Shown one piece after another: positions 2,070-53,461 of a stretch of DNA of 64,000 bases. The notes below the pieces were generated by a model, which searched no databases, was not told the DNA's origin, and saw only the letters and a list, made by a program, of their open reading frames with translations. This DNA is from Bacteroidota bacterium (GTDB lineage: Bacteria > Bacteroidota > Bacteroidia > Bacteroidales > WCHB1-69): NCBI GenBank assembly GCA_022708105.1, contig JAKIZI010000002.1, positions 1 to 64,000 of the forward strand, given 5' to 3'. The translations under genes were made by a program, and so were the position numbers. Every line of letters starts with the position of its first letter. The first letter of the stretch is position 1.

Positions 2070-2870
2070 ATGATCAATATTGCATTATTAAAAAGAGAAA
2101 TAAAAGGGAGTTATATCCTGTGGCTCATTTTTGCAGGGATTCTATTGATGTATATATCCATTATTGTTACCATGTTTGACCCGGCGTTGGGAGAGGTCTT
2201 AAAACAATTTTCAGTAGCGATGCCCCAAATGATGGCGATGTTCGGGATGAGTGTTGTGGGGGCGACCTTAATTGAGTTTATGGCCAACTATCTATACGGA
2301 TTTTTGATGCTCATTTTTCCGATGGTTTTTGTTGTCATTTTGGCGAATAAGTTGGTTGCGAAGCACGTGGATAGCGGTTCCATGGCCTATTTGCTGGCAG
2401 CACCCAATAGTCGTAAAAAGTTAATCAGAACGCAAATAACGGTATTGATGGGGGAACTGGTTTTGCTGATACTTTTCTGCACTATTGTCGGCATTGTTGC
2501 ATCGAATTCCTTTTTTCCGGGGAAATTGGATGTCTCTGCTTTTATTAGATTAAATATTGGGGTGTTGGGATTACATTTGGCGATTGCCGGGTTTTGTTTT
2601 TTTGCTTCCTGTATCAGCAACGATACTAAATTGTCCTTGGGATTGGGTGCCGGTGTGCCGACTTTTTTCTATCTGATTCTAATGTTAGGAAATATGGGCG
2701 GGAAGTTGGAACCATTAAAAAATGCAACCATCTTTTCATTGTTTGATTCATACCAATTGATGGATAATGTTGCTGCCGGATGGTGGAAAGTTGGTGTGGC
2801 TGCGGCCATCGGGATTCTGTTTTTTGTCATCGGCAGCCGAATATTTCAAAAGCGAGATTTGCCCTTATAG
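2070..2870 (+). CDS. ABC-2 type transporter permease
   Basis: Inner-membrane protein of 266 aa with about six hydrophobic segments (near residues 15-35, 70-95, 125-150, 165-185, 195-215 and 240-258). This matches the ABC-2 permease fold that pairs with the ATPase encoded just upstream. A cytoplasmic linker with RKKLIRTQ follows the second membrane pair, as in Bacillus/Bacteroidota drug or antimicrobial-peptide exporters. The substrate is unknown. The 76 bp before the next gene contains no clear terminator, so co-transcription with the sulfatase gene is possible. Confidence 0.85.
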   Translation: MINIALLKREIKGSYILWLIFAGILLMYISIIVTMFDPALGEVLKQFSVAMPQMMAMFGMSVVGATLIEFMANYLYGFLMLIFPMVFVVILANKLVAKHVDSGSMAYLLAAPNSRKKLIRTQITVLMGELVLLILFCTIVGIVASNSFFPGKLDVSAFIRLNIGVLGLHLAIAGFCFFASCISNDTKLSLGLGAGVPTFFYLILMLGNMGGKLEPLKNATIFSLFDSYQLMDNVAAGWWKVGVAAAIGILFFVIGSRIFQKRDLPL

Positions 2871-2946
2871 GAACATAATGATTAGTTCCGGTGTGATTAT
2901 GAGAATTATCTAATTTGTTTATTTATTTAAATTTGAGAATATCGAG

Positions 2947-5397
2947 GTGAAATGGAATAAAATATTATGGAAAGAGGGACTTAAATCTTATGCACTATTG
3001 GTGGGATTGTTGTTGCTTTTTGTTTTAATATTGAAAGTAGGGGAGACGATTCGGCTGTTGATGACGATAGAAGTTGATTTTTTCCCGGTTATTGCGAATT
3101 CCTTTTTACAGGCACTGTGGTCGGTTATGTTGCCGGCACTTTCTTTATTTCCCGTTTTTATTTTAGGAAGGCGGTTTTCGGAGCGTGCAACCTACTTTTT
3201 ATTTGCTTTTTTGTGCGAATTATATCTCTTATTTGAAATATCATTGACCATCTATGCAATCAGAAGTGGTTTTTTGATGGGAAGTGAATTGATGGTACGC
3301 CCTTTTCATGAGAGTTGGATGACGATAGTTAGTGTGGTGCCCGGATGGTTGGTGTTCCTTTTTGCCGGAGTATCTGTTTTTGGGTTTTTAGCGACAGCGG
3401 CTTTCCTGCGGAAGAAACAGATAGGAAAAATTCTTTTAAGCGTGTTGGTGGGGGTCTCTGTTCTATCCCCTTTATTATTTGTATTGCGTCATTATACTGA
3501 ACAAAAGTATCAATTAAATCCGGCTGTGTATGCTTATATTTCGGGGAAATCATATCATTGTCTCTCTTCATGGGGTGAATACATGATGAAACCTGAGTTT
3601 GTGGTAAAGCAAGACAAAGAGTTGTTAATGCAATTTTTGGAAGAAAATCCAGGGTGGGCGGTGTCGGATATAGAATATCCTTTTGAACGAAAGGTGACGT
3701 CGGGGAGTGTCCTTGCTCCTTATTTTCGTGCTTCGGAGGAACGACCGAATGTGGTATTGGTCATTGTGGAGTCTTGGGGCGACAGTTGGTTCAGAGCCGG
3801 TTCCAATGGAGTGAGTTTTACCCCTTTTTTGGATTCGTTGTCGCGGCATTCACTGTATTGGAAGAATTGTTTGACTACGACTCCGCGTAGTTTTGGAGCA
3901 GTGCCTTCGATTACCGGATCTCTGCCGCACGGAGTTCAAGGTTTTCAGTTCGGAGAGATGCCCGATCACAATAGTTTAATCAAGATCTTGAAAAATAATG
4001 ATTATCGGATTAATGCCTTTTATGCCGGAGATTTTACTTTTGATGGAATTTATGAATATTTGGAGGCGCAAAAGACAGATTATTTCTCTCCCTTTTTTCA
4101 GGAAGCATGGAAAGATTTCAGTCCGGGGCGGGAGACGACTTATTGGGGCTATCAGGATGAGCCGTTTATTCGCAAAACACTTTCCGTATTGGAACAAGAA
4201 AAAACGGAACAACCTGTTTGTAATTTAGTGATAACTATTAGTGCACATGAAAATTTGTCATTGGTGAATAAACAAAAAGAGCAATTTTATAAAGCCAAAG
4301 CGCGACAATTGATTGAAAAGTTACCGATTGCAGCGCAGGCGACGGCAATGAAGAATTTGGATAAAATTGCATCCATTGTATATACGGATGATTGTTTGCG
4401 TTTGTTTATGAATCGTTATAGAGAAATCAGCGGTTATGAGCAGACTATTTTTGTATTTACGGGAGATCATGGTGGGGCTATTGAGGAGTCGAATAGTCTT
4501 GGTTATTTCCATGTTCCTTTGCTAATCTGGTCTCCTTTGCTGGAGCGTCCCAAAACATTTCCCGCGGTGGTTAGTCATTTGGATATTGCACCTTCAATTA
4601 CAGCATTGCTTGCGGAGAAGTATGGGCTTTTGCTGCCGGAGCAGGTGCATTTTGTGGGACAAGAACTTGATACGGCCCACCTGTTCCGCTCGCAGCAACG
4701 ACTTCTTTTTCTGCTCTATGCACGTCAAATTACCGATATGGTATATCAGAATTATTATGTAACAGATCAAAACCTTTATCGGATCAATGAAAATATGGAG
4801 ATGGAAAAACTCAATTCGAAAAATCTTCAACAAAAGATTCGTGAGATGAGAGATTTATATATTTATATGCATCAATATGTATATTTAAATGATAAATTGA
4901 CCAAAAATCCCCTTTACCCGAAAGCGTATTATCATTCGGTTTTGAATTATAAACCGCATGAGATTTTTACTTTTCAAAACCCACCGAACCCACCGAAAAA
5001 TATGAATGATGCGGTTCAATTTTATATTGTTGCGCCAACGTCGCTGCCAACTTCTCAAAATAAAAAAATTGAGAAAGTCCGAATTTCGGTTTCGGCAGAA
5101 GTGATGTATGAAGGTCGTGTTTTTCAGGATCAGTTCATGAGTTTGGTGTTGGAATGTCATGGGGAGAAGATGACTACTCCTACACAATATAAGGATAAAC
5201 TATCCAAGTTCTTTTTAAAAAACCGTTATACAGTTCATGAATGGGTGAAAATGAAAGTTGTAAAGGAGTTTGCTCTTGAGGGCAGTGAAAATACCACCTT
5301 TTCGGTTTCGTTACTGAGTACAGAAAAACAAGAGTTATGGGTAAAGGATCACAAAGTCTTTTTAAGGAATGTGTGCGTAGAAGTCACAGTTCTTTAG
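2947..5397 (+). CDS. LTA synthase-family membrane sulfatase/phosphoglycerol transferase
   Basis: Membrane-anchored alkaline-phosphatase-superfamily enzyme. About five N-terminal transmembrane segments fill residues 1-190, followed by an extracytoplasmic sulfatase domain from about residue 265. Metal and active-site elements are visible: NVVLVIVES with Glu275, the TTTPRS segment (residues 310-315) that should supply the nucleophilic Thr/Ser, and TGDHGG with Asp507/His508. Relatives (LtaS, MdoB/OpgB) transfer or hydrolyse glycerophosphate on glycolipids or glucans; the exact substrate is inferred only. The start is a GTG, chosen because it keeps the first membrane helix. About 200 residues at the C-terminus lie outside the catalytic domain. 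A paralogue lies tail-to-tail on the other strand. Confidence 0.85.
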   Translation: MKWNKILWKEGLKSYALLVGLLLLFVLILKVGETIRLLMTIEVDFFPVIANSFLQALWSVMLPALSLFPVFILGRRFSERATYFLFAFLCELYLLFEISLTIYAIRSGFLMGSELMVRPFHESWMTIVSVVPGWLVFLFAGVSVFGFLATAAFLRKKQIGKILLSVLVGVSVLSPLLFVLRHYTEQKYQLNPAVYAYISGKSYHCLSSWGEYMMKPEFVVKQDKELLMQFLEENPGWAVSDIEYPFERKVTSGSVLAPYFRASEERPNVVLVIVESWGDSWFRAGSNGVSFTPFLDSLSRHSLYWKNCLTTTPRSFGAVPSITGSLPHGVQGFQFGEMPDHNSLIKILKNNDYRINAFYAGDFTFDGIYEYLEAQKTDYFSPFFQEAWKDFSPGRETTYWGYQDEPFIRKTLSVLEQEKTEQPVCNLVITISAHENLSLVNKQKEQFYKAKARQLIEKLPIAAQATAMKNLDKIASIVYTDDCLRLFMNRYREISGYEQTIFVFTGDHGGAIEESNSLGYFHVPLLIWSPLLERPKTFPAVVSHLDIAPSITALLAEKYGLLLPEQVHFVGQELDTAHLFRSQQRLLFLLYARQITDMVYQNYYVTDQNLYRINENMEMEKLNSKNLQQKIREMRDLYIYMHQYVYLNDKLTKNPLYPKAYYHSVLNYKPHEIFTFQNPPNPPKNMNDAVQFYIVAPTSLPTSQNKKIEKVRISVSAEVMYEGRVFQDQFMSLVLECHGEKMTTPTQYKDKLSKFFLKNRYTVHEWVKMKVVKEFALEGSENTTFSVSLLSTEKQELWVKDHKVFLRNVCVEVTVL

Positions 5398-7835
5398 TAA
5401 ACTGCCTCTAATTTTACTTGTAAGTCGGCAATATAAAATGGTCGTTCCTCGGGATTATAGAGATAAATTTTAAGTTTATCCCCTTTTTGATAGTTATAAT
5501 TACTCTTTTTGAAAATATTTTTAAACGTAAAATATTCCCATTGATTATATTTGCCGTACCACATAGTGTTCAGCTCGTCAACCGAATAGTATGTTTGTTT
5601 CCCGTTTTTATTGACAATTTGCGTAACTATGCTGATTGGGGTTCTTCCATTATTTGTTTCAATAGAAGGAATAAAAAGATTGAATTGATAATGGGCAATA
5701 ATTGTAGGATCTTCATGGAGCGTGAATTCGAAAATAGACATCGGAAATTTATGTTTTTCAAAAAAGGAGGTCTCCTTTTTTCCATGAAAAGTTCCATTTT
5801 TCTGATTCGAGAGAGAACTATATTTGGTAATGGCTTCAGTAACACTATGGATAGTTAATAGTTCTGTGACCAAACGCACGTCGGAATTGAGCGGATTCTC
5901 AATCAAAACATCATTTTCTGCAACATATACATCCAAAATTTTATAAAGATTAAAGAGATTTGCAGCTTTCGGGTAGGATGTTTCTTGAAGCGAAAGATCT
6001 CCCTGATGTGAGCTTATTTTATACGTTTTATCTTGGTCAATAAAAAAGTCCTGATAGATACAATTTGCCATATTTTGCCCCACATCCATTTGAGGGCAGA
6101 ATGCCTGACTTCGAAAATGAGAAGAAGTATCTAATCCGTGACTGAGCCATGCTACTTTTTTGGGAGACTCGATATTATATTTATTTTTCATTAATGCGAG
6201 AAAAGTCGGAGTAATATCGCGATGAGAGACAATGGCAGGGAATTGGCGGGATTCTTTGAGCATAGGAGACCATATAATCAAAGGCACTTGATAGATCTCA
6301 AAAATGTTGGATTCCATATTAAAATTATGATCTCCGGTGATAATAAAAACCGTATTTTCAAATCCCGGCTTTTGTCGATAATCGTTTATTAATTGTCTTA
6401 AACTTTCATCTAAATAAAGAAAAGAGGCATAATATCGGTGAAATTTCGGTTCCATTTCTTTGGCTTTTCCGCATTTGATGAGTTGTTGTCTGTATCTTTC
6501 TGTGAGTTTTTCCGCATTTGGATATTGGAATGGATCGTGTGTAGAGAGAGTCAGGTAAATATCCAGTCGGGGTTTGGATTGGTTAAATTTTATATTCCGG
6601 ATGGCTTCGCGGAACAGGACGTGATCATACAATCCCCAGGAAGTGCGTTCAGAACTATTTTCATATTCTTTTTCATTCAAATAATGGTAGATATAATTGC
6701 GTTCTATGAAGTAAGACATGTTATCAAACCCGAGCCATCCTCCATGAAAGAAAGAGGCATCGTAGCCATTGTCAATTAAAATTTTGATGAGGGAGTGAAA
6801 TTCGGGAATATTGTTTTTATAATTCATGATTCCCCCTTTCCCGAAAGGTAATGCCCCAAAGATAGCAGGCAAAACACCAATGGTTCTATGCGAAACTGAA
6901 AAACAATGATTCCAGGAAAGTCCTGTTGAAGCTAATGAATCCAAGAAGGGCGTTGCGGAAGGTAGTCGGCTCCCGGATCCGCTGAATTCACGCCCGAGTC
7001 CTTCTACAATGATGAAAACAAAATTTGGCTTGCTTTTCTTTAAATCAAAATAGGTAGATAAGCGGTCTTCGGTTTCATCTTCGTGCAAAAAGGGATATCG
7101 AGGATCTGTAAATTTGATTTCCGGGAAAAATTTTTGAAATTCCATCGCTTTTTCTTCCATCTGGATTGGTTTGAATTGTTTCAATGAAATTCCCTTACGA
7201 ATACTGTTGAATAGGTACACATTCTTATTGACAACGGTAAAGTAAGTCTTTCGGGTTTCAAAGCGAGAGGAGGTTGCAGAGCCCACGAAAAAAGAAATAA
7301 TAAAAATTGCAGCACTAATAAATATGATTGATTTAGGAAAACGAATCTGTCGAGAGCTAAGAAAAATCAACGCGCCGGGAAAAAGGACAAAACCGCTATA
7401 CGCCCACCAAGGAGAAGGTTGAGAAGAGGAGACCGTTACTAAAAGTTCTTTGAAAGAATAGGCAAGGAAAATATTATCAAGCGGTACTCCGCTGACAGAA
7501 TAGTAGAGCATGGAAGCCAGGGAAACCCATATCATAAAAGTGCACCAAATCCATATAAAAAGATTTGCTCCTTTGTTTGAAAAATGAAAAATGAAGGCGT
7601 AAATTGGAAACAAGAGGAGACTAAAGCGAGAAAAATAGACGATATCAAATAAAAGTCCTATTCCATTGTTTCTTAGATGAACGGAAAATGAGCTCCCCAA
7701 TTCGTGTGTAAGCAACAAACTCTCAAAAAATCTTATGAGAATGGCAATACAAAGAAAGCAAAAGCAGAAATTTAGATAATTTAATAGAGAAGATTTAAGT
7801 TCTAGAAAATGAAGTTTAAAACGGCTGATTTTCAT
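5394..7835 (-). CDS. LTA synthase-family membrane sulfatase, second paralogue
   Basis: Same architecture as its convergent neighbour: about five membrane helices in the first 190 residues, then a periplasmic sulfatase domain. Glu278 (IIVEGLG) and Asp502/His503 (TGDHNF) mark the metal site, and the nucleophile probably lies in the SVSHRTIG segment. An ATG at 7835 is preferred to an in-frame TTG at 7853. With the ATG the protein is 813 aa and starts 10 nt after the upstream gene's stop. Last gene of a compact three-gene operon with a GH16-like and a GDPD-like lipoprotein, which suggests a phosphoglycerol-modified glycan as substrate (inference). Confidence 0.85.
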   Translation of the reverse strand: MKISRFKLHFLELKSSLLNYLNFCFCFLCIAILIRFFESLLLTHELGSSFSVHLRNNGIGLLFDIVYFSRFSLLLFPIYAFIFHFSNKGANLFIWIWCTFMIWVSLASMLYYSVSGVPLDNIFLAYSFKELLVTVSSSQPSPWWAYSGFVLFPGALIFLSSRQIRFPKSIIFISAAIFIISFFVGSATSSRFETRKTYFTVVNKNVYLFNSIRKGISLKQFKPIQMEEKAMEFQKFFPEIKFTDPRYPFLHEDETEDRLSTYFDLKKSKPNFVFIIVEGLGREFSGSGSRLPSATPFLDSLASTGLSWNHCFSVSHRTIGVLPAIFGALPFGKGGIMNYKNNIPEFHSLIKILIDNGYDASFFHGGWLGFDNMSYFIERNYIYHYLNEKEYENSSERTSWGLYDHVLFREAIRNIKFNQSKPRLDIYLTLSTHDPFQYPNAEKLTERYRQQLIKCGKAKEMEPKFHRYYASFLYLDESLRQLINDYRQKPGFENTVFIITGDHNFNMESNIFEIYQVPLIIWSPMLKESRQFPAIVSHRDITPTFLALMKNKYNIESPKKVAWLSHGLDTSSHFRSQAFCPQMDVGQNMANCIYQDFFIDQDKTYKISSHQGDLSLQETSYPKAANLFNLYKILDVYVAENDVLIENPLNSDVRLVTELLTIHSVTEAITKYSSLSNQKNGTFHGKKETSFFEKHKFPMSIFEFTLHEDPTIIAHYQFNLFIPSIETNNGRTPISIVTQIVNKNGKQTYYSVDELNTMWYGKYNQWEYFTFKNIFKKSNYNYQKGDKLKIYLYNPEERPFYIADLQVKLEAVY

Positions 7836-48840: not shown

Positions 48841-48893
48841 TTGCTTCGTAAAAGTTTTTCTTCGCCCGATTTGTTGAATAGAACGAATTATTC

Positions 48894-49095
48894 GATACTA
48901 TCCTAAAAAGTGTGTAAAACTCAAAGTTTAATATTTTTGTAAAGCAAAAACAAACAAACAAACAATGAATTTTACACAATCGCAAAATTACGAAATTTTA
49001 GAGAATATCATCAACCATGGTTCAGGAATTGAAGAAATTCTACGGATGAGTCTTGAAATTCTTAGGAAGGCGGAACGCTAGGAACACAATTATAT
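48894..49095 (+). mobile_element. IS256-family left-end relic, + orientation
   Basis: Outer end GATACTATCCTAAAAAGTGT is followed by a transposase start at 48965 (MNFTQSQNYEILENIINHGS). It reads about 38 codons to an in-frame TAG in GAACGCTAGGAACAC, after which similarity stops near 49095. The same end, start and TAG occur inverted at 55482-55285. It is the start of a Mutator/IS256-type transposase, not functional. The following 49096-49136 has nothing I recognise. Confidence 0.8.
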
Positions 49096-49136
49096 GTTCA
49101 TTGCTTCATAATTATGGTGCAATTGCAAAGAGAGGC

Positions 49137-49259
49137 AACATTCGTAAATATTTTTAAAAAAAAACAAAATTATTTTTTATATTGTTTATTATCATTAAGT
49201 TATCATAAATACAAAATTTTATTTACGAATGTTATAAGATTTGTATTTACGAAAGTGTT
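49137..49259. promoter_or_regulatory. 14-bp inverted repeat with a third half-copy (possible operator)
   Basis: AACATTCGTAAATA (49137-49150) is the exact reverse complement of TATTTACGAATGTT (49220-49233), and TATTTACGAAAGTGTT follows at 49244-49259. The 70 bp between is very AT-rich. Such spaced sites suggest a DNA-binding protein's operator or an integration site; no assignment can be made. It lies upstream of the nuclease gene. Confidence 0.4.
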
Positions 49260-49281
49260 ATATTTGTTGTGTAAATAACCT

Positions 49282-50427
49282 GTTAGCATTTATTTAAAAA
49301 GACAAAACAGACAACTTCTATGTACGGACTGAAAGATTTAAAAACCACAATAAAAACAGACATTAATTCAGTTGAGTGCCCAGTTAAAGGTTGTTCTGTG
49401 AAAGTTGACCGACAAAGAAATTCATTCAAACGAGAGCAGACATACTTATGCCCGACTCACAAGATTTATATATCTCCTTCGACGTTTGAGTACGAAACAG
49501 AGAAAGAAAATTTATTGTGGTTTGACAATTCAGACAACCTACTTTTTGAAGAAATAAAAAAAGTAAAGAGAGAAAGCCGTATCTCAAGGGATAACAGTGA
49601 AGATGCTTTAACTTGGAATGTGTTTAGGTTTCTCGACAAACAAGGACTCCTGCCAGATTTTCTTTCTCAATTATCAAACAAAGAAATTAAAGACACAGAA
49701 TTGATTTTATGGTCATATTCACCAAAAGAAAAATCTGGCTGGACATTATTGAATCAAGCACGTGAGGAATTTGGTGAGAAAATCAAAAGAGGCTCTGAAC
49801 CTGATATTATAATACGGACAAACAAAGTATTATATTTCATAGAAGCAAAGTTAACAGCAAAAAACGAAACTACACCAAGCGAATCGCAAAACAGAAAAAA
49901 ATACGAAACTGGCGGGGATAGATTGTTTCAACAAATCTTCAAATCAGACTATGAAACTGTTGCTGAAAAGGAAAAAAGATATGAATTAATGCGGTTTTGG
50001 TTGATTGGAAGTTGGATGGCAAAAAAACTTAATGTAGACTTTGAATTTTATAGTTTGGTAATGCAATCCAGAGAATTAGACATTGAAGCAACCTTTGGTA
50101 AGCATATAATTGAAACAACAGAAAGGAAATTTTTCCGCTTGACTTGGGAGCAAATCTATGCTTTTATTAAACTGCTCCCAGACAATAAGGAAAAATATAT
50201 AGTGAATAAGTACTTTGAAAACAAGTCTCTTGGGTACAATTCTATTGGTAAAATTATAAAGGCATTTAATGTTAAATTGACGAAGATAAAAAAATAAACA
50301 AATGCTAACAAAGTGTAAATGCCATAAGGGTTTCAGTGGGTATGCGAAGTGTTGTAGACCACTTCAACTTTTCGTGTAACTTGACAGAAAATCGCCCGCA
50401 ATCCCGCACTGCTCATAGCCGGAACCG
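49282..50427 (+). mobile_element. Integron-type gene cassette (nuclease plus attC-like site)
   Basis: Bounded by two direct copies of GTTAGCAT (49282-49289 and 50427-50434), the expected result of site-specific insertion at G/TTAGC. It contains one promoterless-looking gene and, after it, the attC-like palindrome. No integrase gene is in the window, so this would be a lone cassette. Confidence 0.55.
49320..50297 (+). CDS. PD-(D/E)XK nuclease-domain protein with N-terminal zinc ribbon
   Basis: 325-aa protein of unknown target. Residues 20-47 form a likely zinc ribbon (Cys20, Cys25, Cys44, His47). The core has SEPDII (Asp162) followed by YFIEAKLTAK (Glu175, Lys177), the classic PD-(D/E)XK metal and catalytic residues. 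This points to a restriction-like or defence endonuclease. It has no companion methylase. It is the only gene in the putative cassette. Confidence 0.7.
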   Translation: MYGLKDLKTTIKTDINSVECPVKGCSVKVDRQRNSFKREQTYLCPTHKIYISPSTFEYETEKENLLWFDNSDNLLFEEIKKVKRESRISRDNSEDALTWNVFRFLDKQGLLPDFLSQLSNKEIKDTELILWSYSPKEKSGWTLLNQAREEFGEKIKRGSEPDIIIRTNKVLYFIEAKLTAKNETTPSESQNRKKYETGGDRLFQQIFKSDYETVAEKEKRYELMRFWLIGSWMAKKLNVDFEFYSLVMQSRELDIEATFGKHIIETTERKFFRLTWEQIYAFIKLLPDNKEKYIVNKYFENKSLGYNSIGKIIKAFNVKLTKIKK

Positions 50428-50434
50428 TTAGCAT
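50302..50434 (+). repeat. attC-like recombination site (133 bp)
   Basis: Ends are a perfect inverted pair ATGCTAAC / GTTAGCAT. Inside, GCCATAAG faces a partly complementary CTCATAGC. The interior runs of AAGGGTTTCAGTGG and CCCGCACTGC resemble attC-type elements that I recall from Bacteroidota metagenomes. The AAC...GTT ends follow the attC rule, but the GTTRRRY consensus is met only in part. Confidence 0.55.
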
Positions 50435-50493
50435 TCATTGGAAGAAACCCAGACACATAAATGAATATTCACGATTAAAAAAGGAGGTCATAA

Positions 50494-50982
50494 ATGAGAC
50501 ACAAGCGATTAAAATTAAGTGCCATACTCTTGTTAGGACTTGGACTAACAGGACTACAAGCACAAGAAAGCGTTAATTCCACCGGCGGAAATGCTGTTTC
50601 CTCTAGTGGCTCGGTGAGTTATTCCGTCGGACAGGATTCATACCATAGTCCAGTCGGCATCAACGGATCAGTAGCGGAAGGTGTGCAGCAGCCATATGAA
50701 ATTTCGGTAATCACAGAAATCGAAGAAGCGAAGGGCATAACTCTTTCCATTTCGGTATACCCGAACCCTGCAACTAATTATCTTTCATTGGAAATTAAAG
50801 ATATAGAAATTACCGATTTAAGATTTCAATTATTTGATATGCAAGGAAAACTTTTACATAATGAAAAAATAGTTGGGAATCAAACCACTATTGCGATGAA
50901 TAAATATGCTCCGGCAACCTATTTTATAAAAGTTTTTCAGGATAATACAGAAGTAAAAACATTTAAAGTAATAAAAAATTAA
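50494..50982 (+). CDS. Small T9SS type A cargo protein
   Basis: 162-aa secreted protein. Signal peptide ends LQAQE (about 23). A Ser/Gly-rich strand region (VNSTGGNAVSSSGSVSYSVGQ) repeats a theme common in Bacteroidota surface proteins. The C-terminal 75 residues are the type A sorting domain: SVYPNPATNYLSLEI, LFDMQGKLL, YFIKVFQDNTEVKTFKVIKN. A near-perfect AAGGAGGT precedes the ATG. Its last codons are duplicated upstream of the second FISUMP gene. It probably ends on the surface or as a small secreted adhesin-like protein. Confidence 0.8.
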   Translation: MRHKRLKLSAILLLGLGLTGLQAQESVNSTGGNAVSSSGSVSYSVGQDSYHSPVGINGSVAEGVQQPYEISVITEIEEAKGITLSISVYPNPATNYLSLEIKDIEITDLRFQLFDMQGKLLHNEKIVGNQTTIAMNKYAPATYFIKVFQDNTEVKTFKVIKN

Positions 50983-50995
50983 GGAGGATTGTTAC

Positions 50996-52147
50996 ATGAA
51001 AAAAATACTTACCATTTTGTCAGTTGTGTTTTTAACAGCAACACTTTGGGCACAAAGCCCTGAAAAAATGAGTTATCAAGCAGTCATTCGAGATGCAAAT
51101 GGGAATCTTCTGTCCAACCATTCGATTGGGATGCAACTTAGCATCTTACAAGGTAGTCCAAGCGGCACTGCAGTTTACATCGAAAGACAATCTCCAAGCA
51201 CTAATGCCAATGGATTGGTAACTTTAGAAATAGGAAACGGGACAGTGGTGTCGGGCGATTTTACTACCATCGACTGGGCAAACGGCCCTTATTTTCTGAA
51301 ATCCGAAACAGATCTTAACGGCGGGGCAACATACACTATTGCAGGAACAAGTCAGCTATTAAGTGTACCCTATGCTTTACATGCAAAAACGGCGGAAACG
51401 CTTACAGGTGGCATTACCGAAACCGACCCCAGCGTACCCACAGGAACCCAATCTGGACAAATGCAATATTGGAACGGCACAGCATGGGTAACTGTTGCAG
51501 CTACCGCAAACGAAGGAGCAACGCTACAAATGATTGGAGGCGTGCCTACATGGGTAGGCGGAGCACCTCCTCCACAAAATGTTACCAACCCCACCACCGG
51601 TGAAATTTGGATGGACCGTAACCTTGGCGCCTCACAAGTGGCAATAAGTAGCACCGATGCCCTTGCTTATGGCGATTTGTACCAGTGGGGACGTGCAGCA
51701 GACGGTCACGAAAGCCGTACATCGGGTACAACATCTACATTGGCAACAAGCGATACCCCCGGGCATGGCTATTTTATAACCAGTATCAGTTTCCCTGACG
51801 ATTGGCGCAACCCGCAAAACGACAACCTTTGGCAGGGTGTAAGCGGCATCAACAATCCTTGCCCAAGTGGTTACCGCATACCAACCAGAGCCGAATGGGA
51901 AGCCGAGCTTGCAAGTTGGAGTAGCAACAATGCAGCCGGAGCTTTTGCCTCTCCGCTTAAGTTGCCCGTGCCCGGCGGCCGAGACGACAGCAATGGCGTG
52001 CTCAGCAGTGCGGGTACCAACGCCTACTATTGGTCGAGTACGGTAGATGGTACCAGCGTCATACTCCTGTGCTTCAACAGTAGCAATGCCAATATGATCA
52101 GCTACGGCCGTGGATACGGCTTATCTGTCCGCTGCATTAAGGATTAG
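50996..52147 (+). CDS. FISUMP-domain surface protein, copy 1 (candidate DGR target)
   Basis: 383-aa secreted protein. Signal peptide (MKKILTILSVVFLTAT, cleavage near LWAQS); N-terminal conserved region (about 20-180) including SYQAVIRDANGN and SQLLSVPYALHAK; then a Fibrobacter-major-paralogue (FISUMP) C-type-lectin-like domain from GEIWMDRNLG (about 200) to VRCIKD at the end. Repeated blocks NPCPSGYRIPT, WSSNNAAGAFASPLKLP and YYWSSTVDGT are conserved; the residues between vary against copy 2. Codon-level comparison suggests diversification by a retroelement. The ribosome-binding site is AAGGAGG. Confidence 0.85.
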   Translation: MKKILTILSVVFLTATLWAQSPEKMSYQAVIRDANGNLLSNHSIGMQLSILQGSPSGTAVYIERQSPSTNANGLVTLEIGNGTVVSGDFTTIDWANGPYFLKSETDLNGGATYTIAGTSQLLSVPYALHAKTAETLTGGITETDPSVPTGTQSGQMQYWNGTAWVTVAATANEGATLQMIGGVPTWVGGAPPPQNVTNPTTGEIWMDRNLGASQVAISSTDALAYGDLYQWGRAADGHESRTSGTTSTLATSDTPGHGYFITSISFPDDWRNPQNDNLWQGVSGINNPCPSGYRIPTRAEWEAELASWSSNNAAGAFASPLKLPVPGGRDDSNGVLSSAGTNAYYWSSTVDGTSVILLCFNSSNANMISYGRGYGLSVRCIKD

Positions 52148-52265: not shown

Positions 52266-53461
52266 TACAGAAGTAAAAACATTTAAAGTAATAAAAAATT
52301 AAGGAGGATTGTTCAATGAAAAAAATAATTACCATTTTATCAGTTGTGTTTTTAACAGCAACACTTTGGGCACAAAGCCCCGAACAAATGAGTTATCAAG
52401 CAGTAATTCGAGAAGCAAACGGGAATTTTCTGTCCAATCATTCGATTGGGATGCAACTTAGCATCTTACAAGGTAGTCCAAGCGGCACTGCAGTTTACAT
52501 CGAAAGACAATCTCCAAGTACTAATACCAATGGATTGGTAACTTTAGAAATAGGAAACGGGATAGTGGTGTCGGGCGATTTTACCACCATCGACTGGGCA
52601 AACGGCCCTTATTTCCTGAAATCCGAAACAGATCTTAACGGCGGGGAAACATATACTATTGCAGGAACAAGTCAGCTATTAAGTGTACCGTATGCTTTAC
52701 ATTCAAAAACGGCGGAAACGGTTACAGGTGGCATTACCGAAACCGACCCCAGCGTACCCACAGGAACCCAATCTGGGGAAATGCAATATTGGAACGGCAC
52801 AGCATGGGTAACTGTTGCAGCTACCGCAAACGAAGGAGCAACTCTACAAATGATTGGAGGCGTGCCTACATGGGTAGGCGGAGCACCTCCTCCACAAAAT
52901 GTTACCAACCCCACTACTGGTGAAATTTGGATGGACCGTAACCTTGGCGCCTTACAAGTGGCAACAAGTAGCACCGATGCAAGCTCTTACGGCAACTTGT
53001 ACCAGTGGGGGCGTGCAGCAGACGGTCACGAAAGCCGTACATCGGGTACAACATCTACATTGGCAACAAGCGATACACCCGGACATGGCGATTTTATAAC
53101 CAATAGAAGTAGCCCTTACGATTGGCGCAACCCGCAAAACGACAACCTTTGGCAGGGTGTAAGCGGCATCAACAATCCTTGTCCAAGTGGTTACCGCATA
53201 CCAACCTCAGCCGAATGGGAAGCCGAGCGTACAAGTTGGAGTAGCAACGATGCAGCCGGAGCTTTTGCCTCTCCGCTTAAGTTGCCCATGGCCGGCTGGC
53301 GTAGCCCCATCGATGGCACGATCACTTATGTGGACAGCCGCTATTGGTCGAGTACGGTATATAGTACCCTCGCCGGTAAGCTAATCTTCAACAGTAGCAA
53401 TTCCTTCGTGAGCACCGAAGGCCGTGTAGCTGGCTTTTCTGTTCGTTGCATTAAAGATTAG
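52266..53461 (+). repeat. Second unit of a tandem duplication (1320-bp offset)
   Basis: Positions 52266-52317 repeat 50946-50997, including the last codons of the T9SS gene (EVKTFKVIKN), its stop and the AAGGAGG site. The FISUMP copies then align at a constant 1320-bp offset until about 53280. This shows a tandem duplication whose left junction lies inside the upstream gene. Confidence 0.85.
52316..53461 (+). CDS. FISUMP-domain surface protein, copy 2 (candidate DGR target)
   Basis: 381-aa paralogue of the preceding gene, nearly identical over the first 200 residues. It diverges at scattered positions in the C-terminal FISUMP domain: AFASPLKLPMAGWRSPIDG and YWSSTVYSTLAGKLIF against different residues in copy 1. 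The final VRCIKD is shared. Two codons are lacking near the YYW segment. Its domain should adopt the C-type-lectin-like fold used for ligand binding. Confidence 0.85.
   Translation: MKKIITILSVVFLTATLWAQSPEQMSYQAVIREANGNFLSNHSIGMQLSILQGSPSGTAVYIERQSPSTNTNGLVTLEIGNGIVVSGDFTTIDWANGPYFLKSETDLNGGETYTIAGTSQLLSVPYALHSKTAETVTGGITETDPSVPTGTQSGEMQYWNGTAWVTVAATANEGATLQMIGGVPTWVGGAPPPQNVTNPTTGEIWMDRNLGALQVATSSTDASSYGNLYQWGRAADGHESRTSGTTSTLATSDTPGHGDFITNRSSPYDWRNPQNDNLWQGVSGINNPCPSGYRIPTSAEWEAERTSWSSNDAAGAFASPLKLPMAGWRSPIDGTITYVDSRYWSSTVYSTLAGKLIFNSSNSFVSTEGRVAGFSVRCIKD

Follow-up and report, generated by a model that had tools for sequence, protein, structure and literature searches.

The segment at 49283-50427 of the window (the whole 64-kb stretch of Bacteroidota DNA analysed here) is very probably a nuclease-carrying cassette in an integron remnant, and a member of a family of integron-like systems in which an XerA-type tyrosine recombinase devoid of the I2 domain would recombine attC sites folded from the bottom strand. 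What carries this reading is a family of covarying and strand-biased sites, together with cassette ends, arrays and attI copies, a shuffled cassette order, and neighbouring integrases from which the domain is absent, all of them established at the level of sequence. The features of the window are as follows.

49088-49282 (+): AT-rich, attI-like landing site with the crossover G|TT at its end
49217-49256 (+): two direct repeats in the attI-like site, TTTTATTTACGAATGT at 49217-49232 and TTGTATTTACGAAAGT at 49241-49256
49282-49296 (+): 5' arm of the cassette, GTTAGCATTTATTTA, pairing with 50295-50309
49283-50427 (+): cassette of 1145 bp, beginning with the TT behind the crossover and closing with the attC G; own-end match 14/15
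49320-50297 (+): cassette gene, probable restriction-like nuclease (PF22558), 325 aa
50295-50309 (+): outer arm R'' of attC, reverse complement GTTAGCATTTGTTTA; own-end match
50302-50434 (-), the bottom strand being the folding strand: attC-like recombination site, 133 bp, covariance models R1/R2
50312-50330 (+): left arm of the L stem (alignment A1, columns 108-126)
50403-50421 (+): right arm of the L stem (alignment A1, columns 15-34)
50428-52147 (+): second cassette (probable), with probable start GTTAGCATTCATTGG, by homology to the G097:C48 (L072) unit
50494-50982 (+): T9SS-tail gene, in the probable second cassette
50996-52147 (+): Fib_succ_major gene, in the probable second cassette

The attC-like site and its family

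The initial annotation had described direct repeats bracketing the nuclease gene and a 133-bp element with perfect ATGCTAAC/GTTAGCAT ends and partial inner complementarity, and these observations stand: GTTAGCAT lies on the forward strand at 49282-49289 and 50427-50434, its reverse complement ATGCTAAC at 50302-50309, and 15 of 22 modelled L-stem pairs form in the window copy (12-22 in the other 21 copies). The count of the 8-mer by itself is at chance level (3 observed and 1.49 expected, with 21 of 100 shuffles reaching 3), and motif counting by itself was dropped as uninformative.

A covariance model of the site was built in this analysis. In its R2 version, made from 18 other members with the window left out, the window site scores 99.0 bits (E 8.5e-26), and in the R1 version, whose training set includes the window, 110.1 bits. 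The proposal that this is an attC-like site of an integron is borne out by the leave-out score and also by its surroundings elsewhere, as copies of the site border many further genes in related genomes. A blastn search with the window element gave 29 matches in 10 of the 104 genomes of the window's family, often with two or three copies per contig in the same orientation. The window's own genome, a metagenome-assembled genome that is 76% complete, holds eight matches to the site model, five of them being the attI loci described below; at the other three (L086, L091 and L092) no attI copy was found in the sequence examined.

Alignment A1 comprises 22 copies written as bottom strands, leaving out L004, L007, L016, L017, L019 and L026, which have no clean core, and L009 and L015, removed by hand (alignment A4 additionally omits L001, L021, L023 and pPP2). 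In A1, 88.0% of the 484 stem cells are paired, against 70.5% when shuffled and at most 47.2% when slid; two-sided changes occur in 15 of the 22 pairs, and covariation scores 0.408, a value that none of 500 shuffles reaches, against 0.131. The two arms of the stem thus change together. By eye, the arms of the window copy resemble two different sub-types, and this site may therefore be chimeric or decaying.

A stem without extrahelical bases

In the available text of PMC2727003, all known attC substrates are said to share three features: extrahelical bases, a spacer that stays unpaired and a terminal structure that varies. The I2 domain of the integrase is described as reading the extrahelical bases, and the joint origin of the two as a chicken-and-egg paradox, in the accessible part of PMC4792948; according to the corresponding parts of PMC9668308, PMC2727003 and PMC4792948, IntI's additional domain has co-evolved with the extrahelical bases, and integron recombination requires that domain.

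We surveyed the stems of 147 distinct sites from the plasmid pPP2 and from loci across the phylum (the best 150 of 169 matches), in an alignment fitted by the model. The initial annotation had proposed folding the bottom strand in search of unpaired extrahelical bases: the window copy folds weakly as a single strand (z -1.74 top, -1.82 bottom), and in the 19-bp L stem of the 147 sites no conserved extrahelical base is found, insert columns being filled in at most four rows. The L stem is continuous in 106 of the 147 sites; two of its pairs are G.T in 143 and 108 of them, respectively, and G.T outnumbers A.C overall by 345 to 52, an excess which marks the bottom strand as the one kept foldable. 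In the first set of sites, the bottom strand folds better than the top in 19 of 24. On present comparisons, the I2 domain (see below) and the extrahelical bases are missing together in the Bacteroidota system.

Cassette ends and the pPP2 array

If cassettes are cut at G|TT, the R'' arm must match the start of its own cassette and not that of the next one. In the window, the 15 bases from 49282 agree at 14 positions with the reverse complement of 50295-50309, the sole such match in the 64 kb besides the site itself (next best, 13). The one mismatch falls at position 11, the same position that never matches in the pairs of pPP2 (0/123), where it forms a bottom-strand G.T in 107 of 123.

This plasmid of Persicobacter psychrovividus (NZ_AP025294, 404,592 bp) was the one record matched in a plasmid search with the DNA of the window cassette. 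The site model places 125 sites on it, spread over 303,371-403,533; they share one strand, and the median gap from one to the next is 553 bp. In 70 kb sampled outside the array, the model found none. Of its 124 complete cassettes, 83 fall into 21 clusters of near-identical copies, and both neighbours differ in 405 of 435 near-identical pairs, the trace that cassette shuffling leaves. Immediately upstream of this array lies the integrase gene, which spans the origin of the circular record and stops several hundred bp ahead of the first site; the first cassette start, GTTGTTCC, comes after a hairpin. The integrase of this array is missing from the PLSDB gene table.

Over the five bases after GTT, the pPP2 arms match their own cassette start at 4.83 positions on average and the next start at 2.02 (shuffled 2.04, sd 0.11; 123 of 124 pairs usable, one pair without GTT being dropped). 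Contigs of the window's family give 4.32 for own and 2.03 for next starts (34 of 45 pairs usable, 11 dropped, taking pairs up to 4000 bp apart), and other loci of the phylum 4.40 and 1.84 (43 of 45 usable, two dropped, taking pairs up to 1600 bp apart). The core consensus of canonical attC sites is GTTRRRY; just 6 of 123 own starts in pPP2 have such a core, and the window core, GTTAGCA, does not fit it.

An attI-like landing site and a lost integrase

The left GTTAGCAT copy had been taken for a flanking repeat; it proves to be the end of an attI-like site that has four other copies in the same genome. The approximately 190 bp before the window crossover are 87-93% identical to copies at L090, L089 and L088, and a 98-bp part of the site is present at L087. 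Each of these copies stands beside attC matches, and the likeness ends at or within a base of G|TT, to be followed by different cassettes (at L089 the crossover G reads A, and L087 has GTA, the second T being lost). The repeats TTTTATTTACGAATGT and TTGTATTTACGAAAGT are kept in the aligned copies and are possible binding sites of the integrase.

On the far side of attI, the four sister loci still hold fragments of the N-terminus of one integrase, 22-61 residues long, broken or shifted in frame, divergent and reading away from the cassettes; unlike these, the window attI has kept no such piece beside it. Because the attI copies share the end at the crossover and the sister loci keep decayed integrase starts, we read the window locus as an integron remnant, composed of attI and cassette, whose integrase has been lost. 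The initial annotation had noted a cassette with no integrase, and within the 64-kb window this holds, as tblastn with eight integrase queries found nothing convincing; the system as such does have integrases, though not of the standard IntI type. One other integrase of the window's genome is cut by a contig end and might act in trans.

Positions 48893-49035 of the window match G001:C118 (L083 294-440) at 82%, and a 38-aa open reading frame at 48965-49081 lies inside or across this region; the match may mark what removed the window integrase. A dispersed repeat whose translation carries a signature like KGAKTQRF..CGHTTTGCGLGAGDRRRSRHP occurs at L086, L087, L088, L089, L090 and L092, and stands beside several of the decayed integrase starts. 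Forty relatives were examined for an empty site next to rsmI, their loci having too little flank.

The cassette gene and the genes downstream

The product of the cassette gene scores 26.2 bits against PF22558 (REase-ARP), just below the 27-bit cut-off, and PADLOC gives no more than a weak match for it (E 0.0085). Among 395 genomes, one relative was found, 50% identical, at L228 (G382:C27) 6656-7618, in a genome with a canonical IntI. By eye, this relative lies between a GTTAGGC start and a GCCTAAC arm, ends that fit the canonical core type, and the site model has no match at its locus. The nuclease has likely moved as cassette cargo, and if the prediction of its function is right, it perhaps has a role in phage defence.

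Although it had been regarded as a lone cassette, the window cassette is probably not alone, because the sequence from 50428 onward resembles the start of a second one: a homologous unit, that of G097:C48 (L072), is closed by an attC with GTTAGCATTTCGGTGG as its arm. Within the window, neither the 3' end nor the attC of this probable second cassette was found.

The two Fib_succ_major genes of the window (50996-52147 and 52316-53461) are 90.8% identical over 1212 bp, and their C-terminal ends differ in the way that target regions of diversity-generating retroelements (DGRs) do. Positions 1-4156 of L072 hold a complete DGR, the 5' end of the stretch lying beyond the contig start: a variable Fib_succ_major protein with VR at 1753-1952, bAvd, TR at 2551-2750 and RT at 2804-4009, running directly into attC at 4024-4156. 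Because it ends directly in attC, the DGR of L072 seems to be carried as an integron cassette. The window's own genome yielded no RT resembling the one in L072, at 76% completeness and in a search run without a positive control.

Integrases without the I2 domain

A profile of such integrases yielded 80 named loci (963 kb), in which the site model finds 65 sites (E<=0.01) at 26 loci. Sixty-two of these lie downstream of the integrase and in the same direction, the three exceptions, at L154 and L190, being upstream and divergent; none of 21 integrase loci outside Bacteroidota has a site match. The integrase of L047 aligns with VchIntIA (2a3v) on both sides of chain residues 202-242 and with nothing in between, and that of L147 shows a gap at the same place when aligned with the Rubrivivax IntI, a true IntI by TIGR02249 (461.6 bits). 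In 30 linked integrases (11 integrases left unmeasured), 64-69 residues separate box I from box II, compared with 107 in the Rubrivivax protein. These alignments argue firmly that the integrases adjoining arrays lack the approximately 40-residue, IntI-specific (I2) domain.

The predicted model of the L147 core (pLDDT 85.8, pTM 0.67) has VchIntIA 2a3v as its best PDB match (TM 0.78). NF040815 (XerA) is the best or joint-best NCBIfam match of eight full-length integrases, six of them attC-linked, with 180-244 bits against a cut-off of 220. Often a repeat such as KWSQSLKAWHVPH lengthens the N-terminus. A tree with 82 rows, from which short or interrupted proteins were left out, places 24 of the 29 linked integrases in a single 56-member clade (SH-aLRT 85), and the attC-link label does not cluster beyond chance (23 changes; shuffled mean 24.0). 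That 26 of 80 loci have a site and that the label is unclustered fits an insensitive model and short contigs, but also a looser association. A tblastn search of plasmids with the integrase returned at least 5000 records, of ordinary recombinases, and was set aside.

Proposed mechanism

We propose that a circular nuclease cassette with the 133-bp attC was taken up at the attI-like site at 49088-49282 by recombination at G|TT, and that a divergent integrase gene once stood beside attI, later to be lost at the window and to decay at the four sister sites. In living members, the XerA-type tyrosine recombinase without I2 would join the folded bottom strand of attC to attI or to other attC sites, the folded site being formed by a long R arm and the 19-bp L stem without extrahelical bases. 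The I2-less integrase would itself perform the recombination, through a circular intermediate. The choice of strand is probably marked by the G.T wobbles at fixed positions of the bottom strand, which correspond to C.A mismatches on the top.

Distribution and alternative explanations

With a small number of candidates scored in each genome, the model finds sites at E<=1e-5 in at least 147 of 394 genomes of the phylum and at least 84 of 172 genera. Of 12 named Bacteroidota genomes that encode such an integrase, 11 have sites; of 14 genomes from other phyla, none does.

An alternative is that these are ordinary Bacteroidota integron cassettes moved by a canonical IntI encoded elsewhere, the I2-less integrases doing another job. 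Canonical IntI is indeed common: 105 of the 394 phylum genomes have one that scores above the TIGR02249 cut-off; 35 genomes of other classes than the window's hold both canonical IntI and the sites, one R1 site of 37.5 bits lies beside the IntI of L254, and a 4-site array in G124 has a canonical IntI some 4 kb away, which counts against a clean split of the two kinds. An earlier idea that the sites never co-occur with canonical IntI was given up on account of this array and the 35 genomes. A model-free scan of canonical arrays for the long R arm gave unclear counts, then nothing. We nevertheless consider this alternative unlikely: none of the 104 genomes of the window's family has an IntI above the cut-off; in the window's class, the sole such genome, G156, is not among the 46 that carry sites; and 18 canonical IntI loci (290 kb) hold one site at E<=1e-5 and three at <=0.1, as against the 65 at <=0.01 in the 963 kb of I2-less loci.

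Very unlikely, in our judgement, is a movement of the cassettes by the host XerC/XerD, as for CTX phage and other Xer-using elements; sites without extrahelical bases and the Xer-like character of the linked integrases would suit it, following the available account of CTX in PMC4792948, but a dedicated, co-directional integrase upstream of arrays, the order of the arrays with attI at the integrase end, and a G|TT crossover with own-end matching would not. Conserved hairpin copies scattered across genomes might also suggest a dispersed repeat (MITE or REP-like) or an RNA element merely standing beside genes, an explanation which we regard as highly implausible given one-strand arrays with a repeated gene-site unit (125 sites), the own-end rule acting across the length of a gene, and an Rfam scan of the window that matched nothing except one tRNA. 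To chance direct repeats flanking a nuclease gene we give practically no weight: the 8-mer count by itself would allow them, but the leave-out score, the 14/15 own-end match and the attI copies contradict them. The reading that we retain is accordingly the integron remnant with a nuclease cassette, of the I2-less family.

Comparison with known systems

The Bacteroidota system works like an integron without having two tested defining features of one, the IntI domain and the extrahelical bases; across the phylum it plainly assembles cassette arrays, one of them with 125 sites, and shuffles their order. It is possible, and we suggest it only tentatively, that this integron lineage never had or has dispensed with I2 and extrahelical bases, and is a living intermediate between Xer and integron in which the choice of the bottom strand is set by wobbles. 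Were this so, it would answer the question raised in the available part of PMC4792948, how either of I2 and attC could have been selected ahead of the other. If the integrase proves active, this question of origin becomes testable with existing strains, a large unscanned pool of cassettes opens, and tools that rely on IntI and on standard models of attC have to be given a second one.

Our search of the open-access literature, with most subscription journals and preprints outside its scope, found no paper on integrons with I2-less integrases. In their available texts, PMC8352920 gives attC models for 11 taxa, Bacteroidota not included, and PMC8618304 and PMC9668308 merely list the phylum. IntegronFinder 2.0 (PMC9024848) reports a complete integron in Salinibacter ruber M1 and In0 elements in Bacteroidetes, the same broad group; the Salinibacter integron was found by IntegronFinder, whereas the I2-less family is not described in the accessible portion of that paper.

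Incomplete integrons (CALIN and In0) resemble the window in that it has a site and a cassette and no integrase, but the window also has an attI-like site, and its sister loci keep decayed integrase starts; CALINs have at least two attC sites and no integrase, and there is one site in the window and two at the sister locus L088. With XerA-type recombinases (NF040815) the Bacteroidota integrases share the NCBIfam match, and differ in their linkage to cassette arrays and their often extended N-terminus. The CTX phage/XerCD system, as described in the accessible part of PMC4792948, likewise combines a folded site free of extrahelical bases with a recombinase lacking I2, whereas the Bacteroidota system comes with an integrase of its own, with attI and with ordered arrays.

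The chromosomal integron of Vibrio cholerae (IntIA, VCR) is alike in having an integrase, attI and same-strand cassette arrays, in the hairpin site with GTT/AAC cores that ends each cassette, in the G|TT crossover and the G after AAC, in its repeated and shuffled cassettes, and in that its integrase is the best fold match of the predicted model. In contrast to it, the Bacteroidota integrase lacks about 40 residues at the additional domain of IntI and is mostly upstream and co-directional; and the sites have an L stem without extrahelical bases, an R arm some 14 bp long that is mismatched at position 11 in every one of the 123 pPP2 pairs, and cores that are rarely GTTRRRY.
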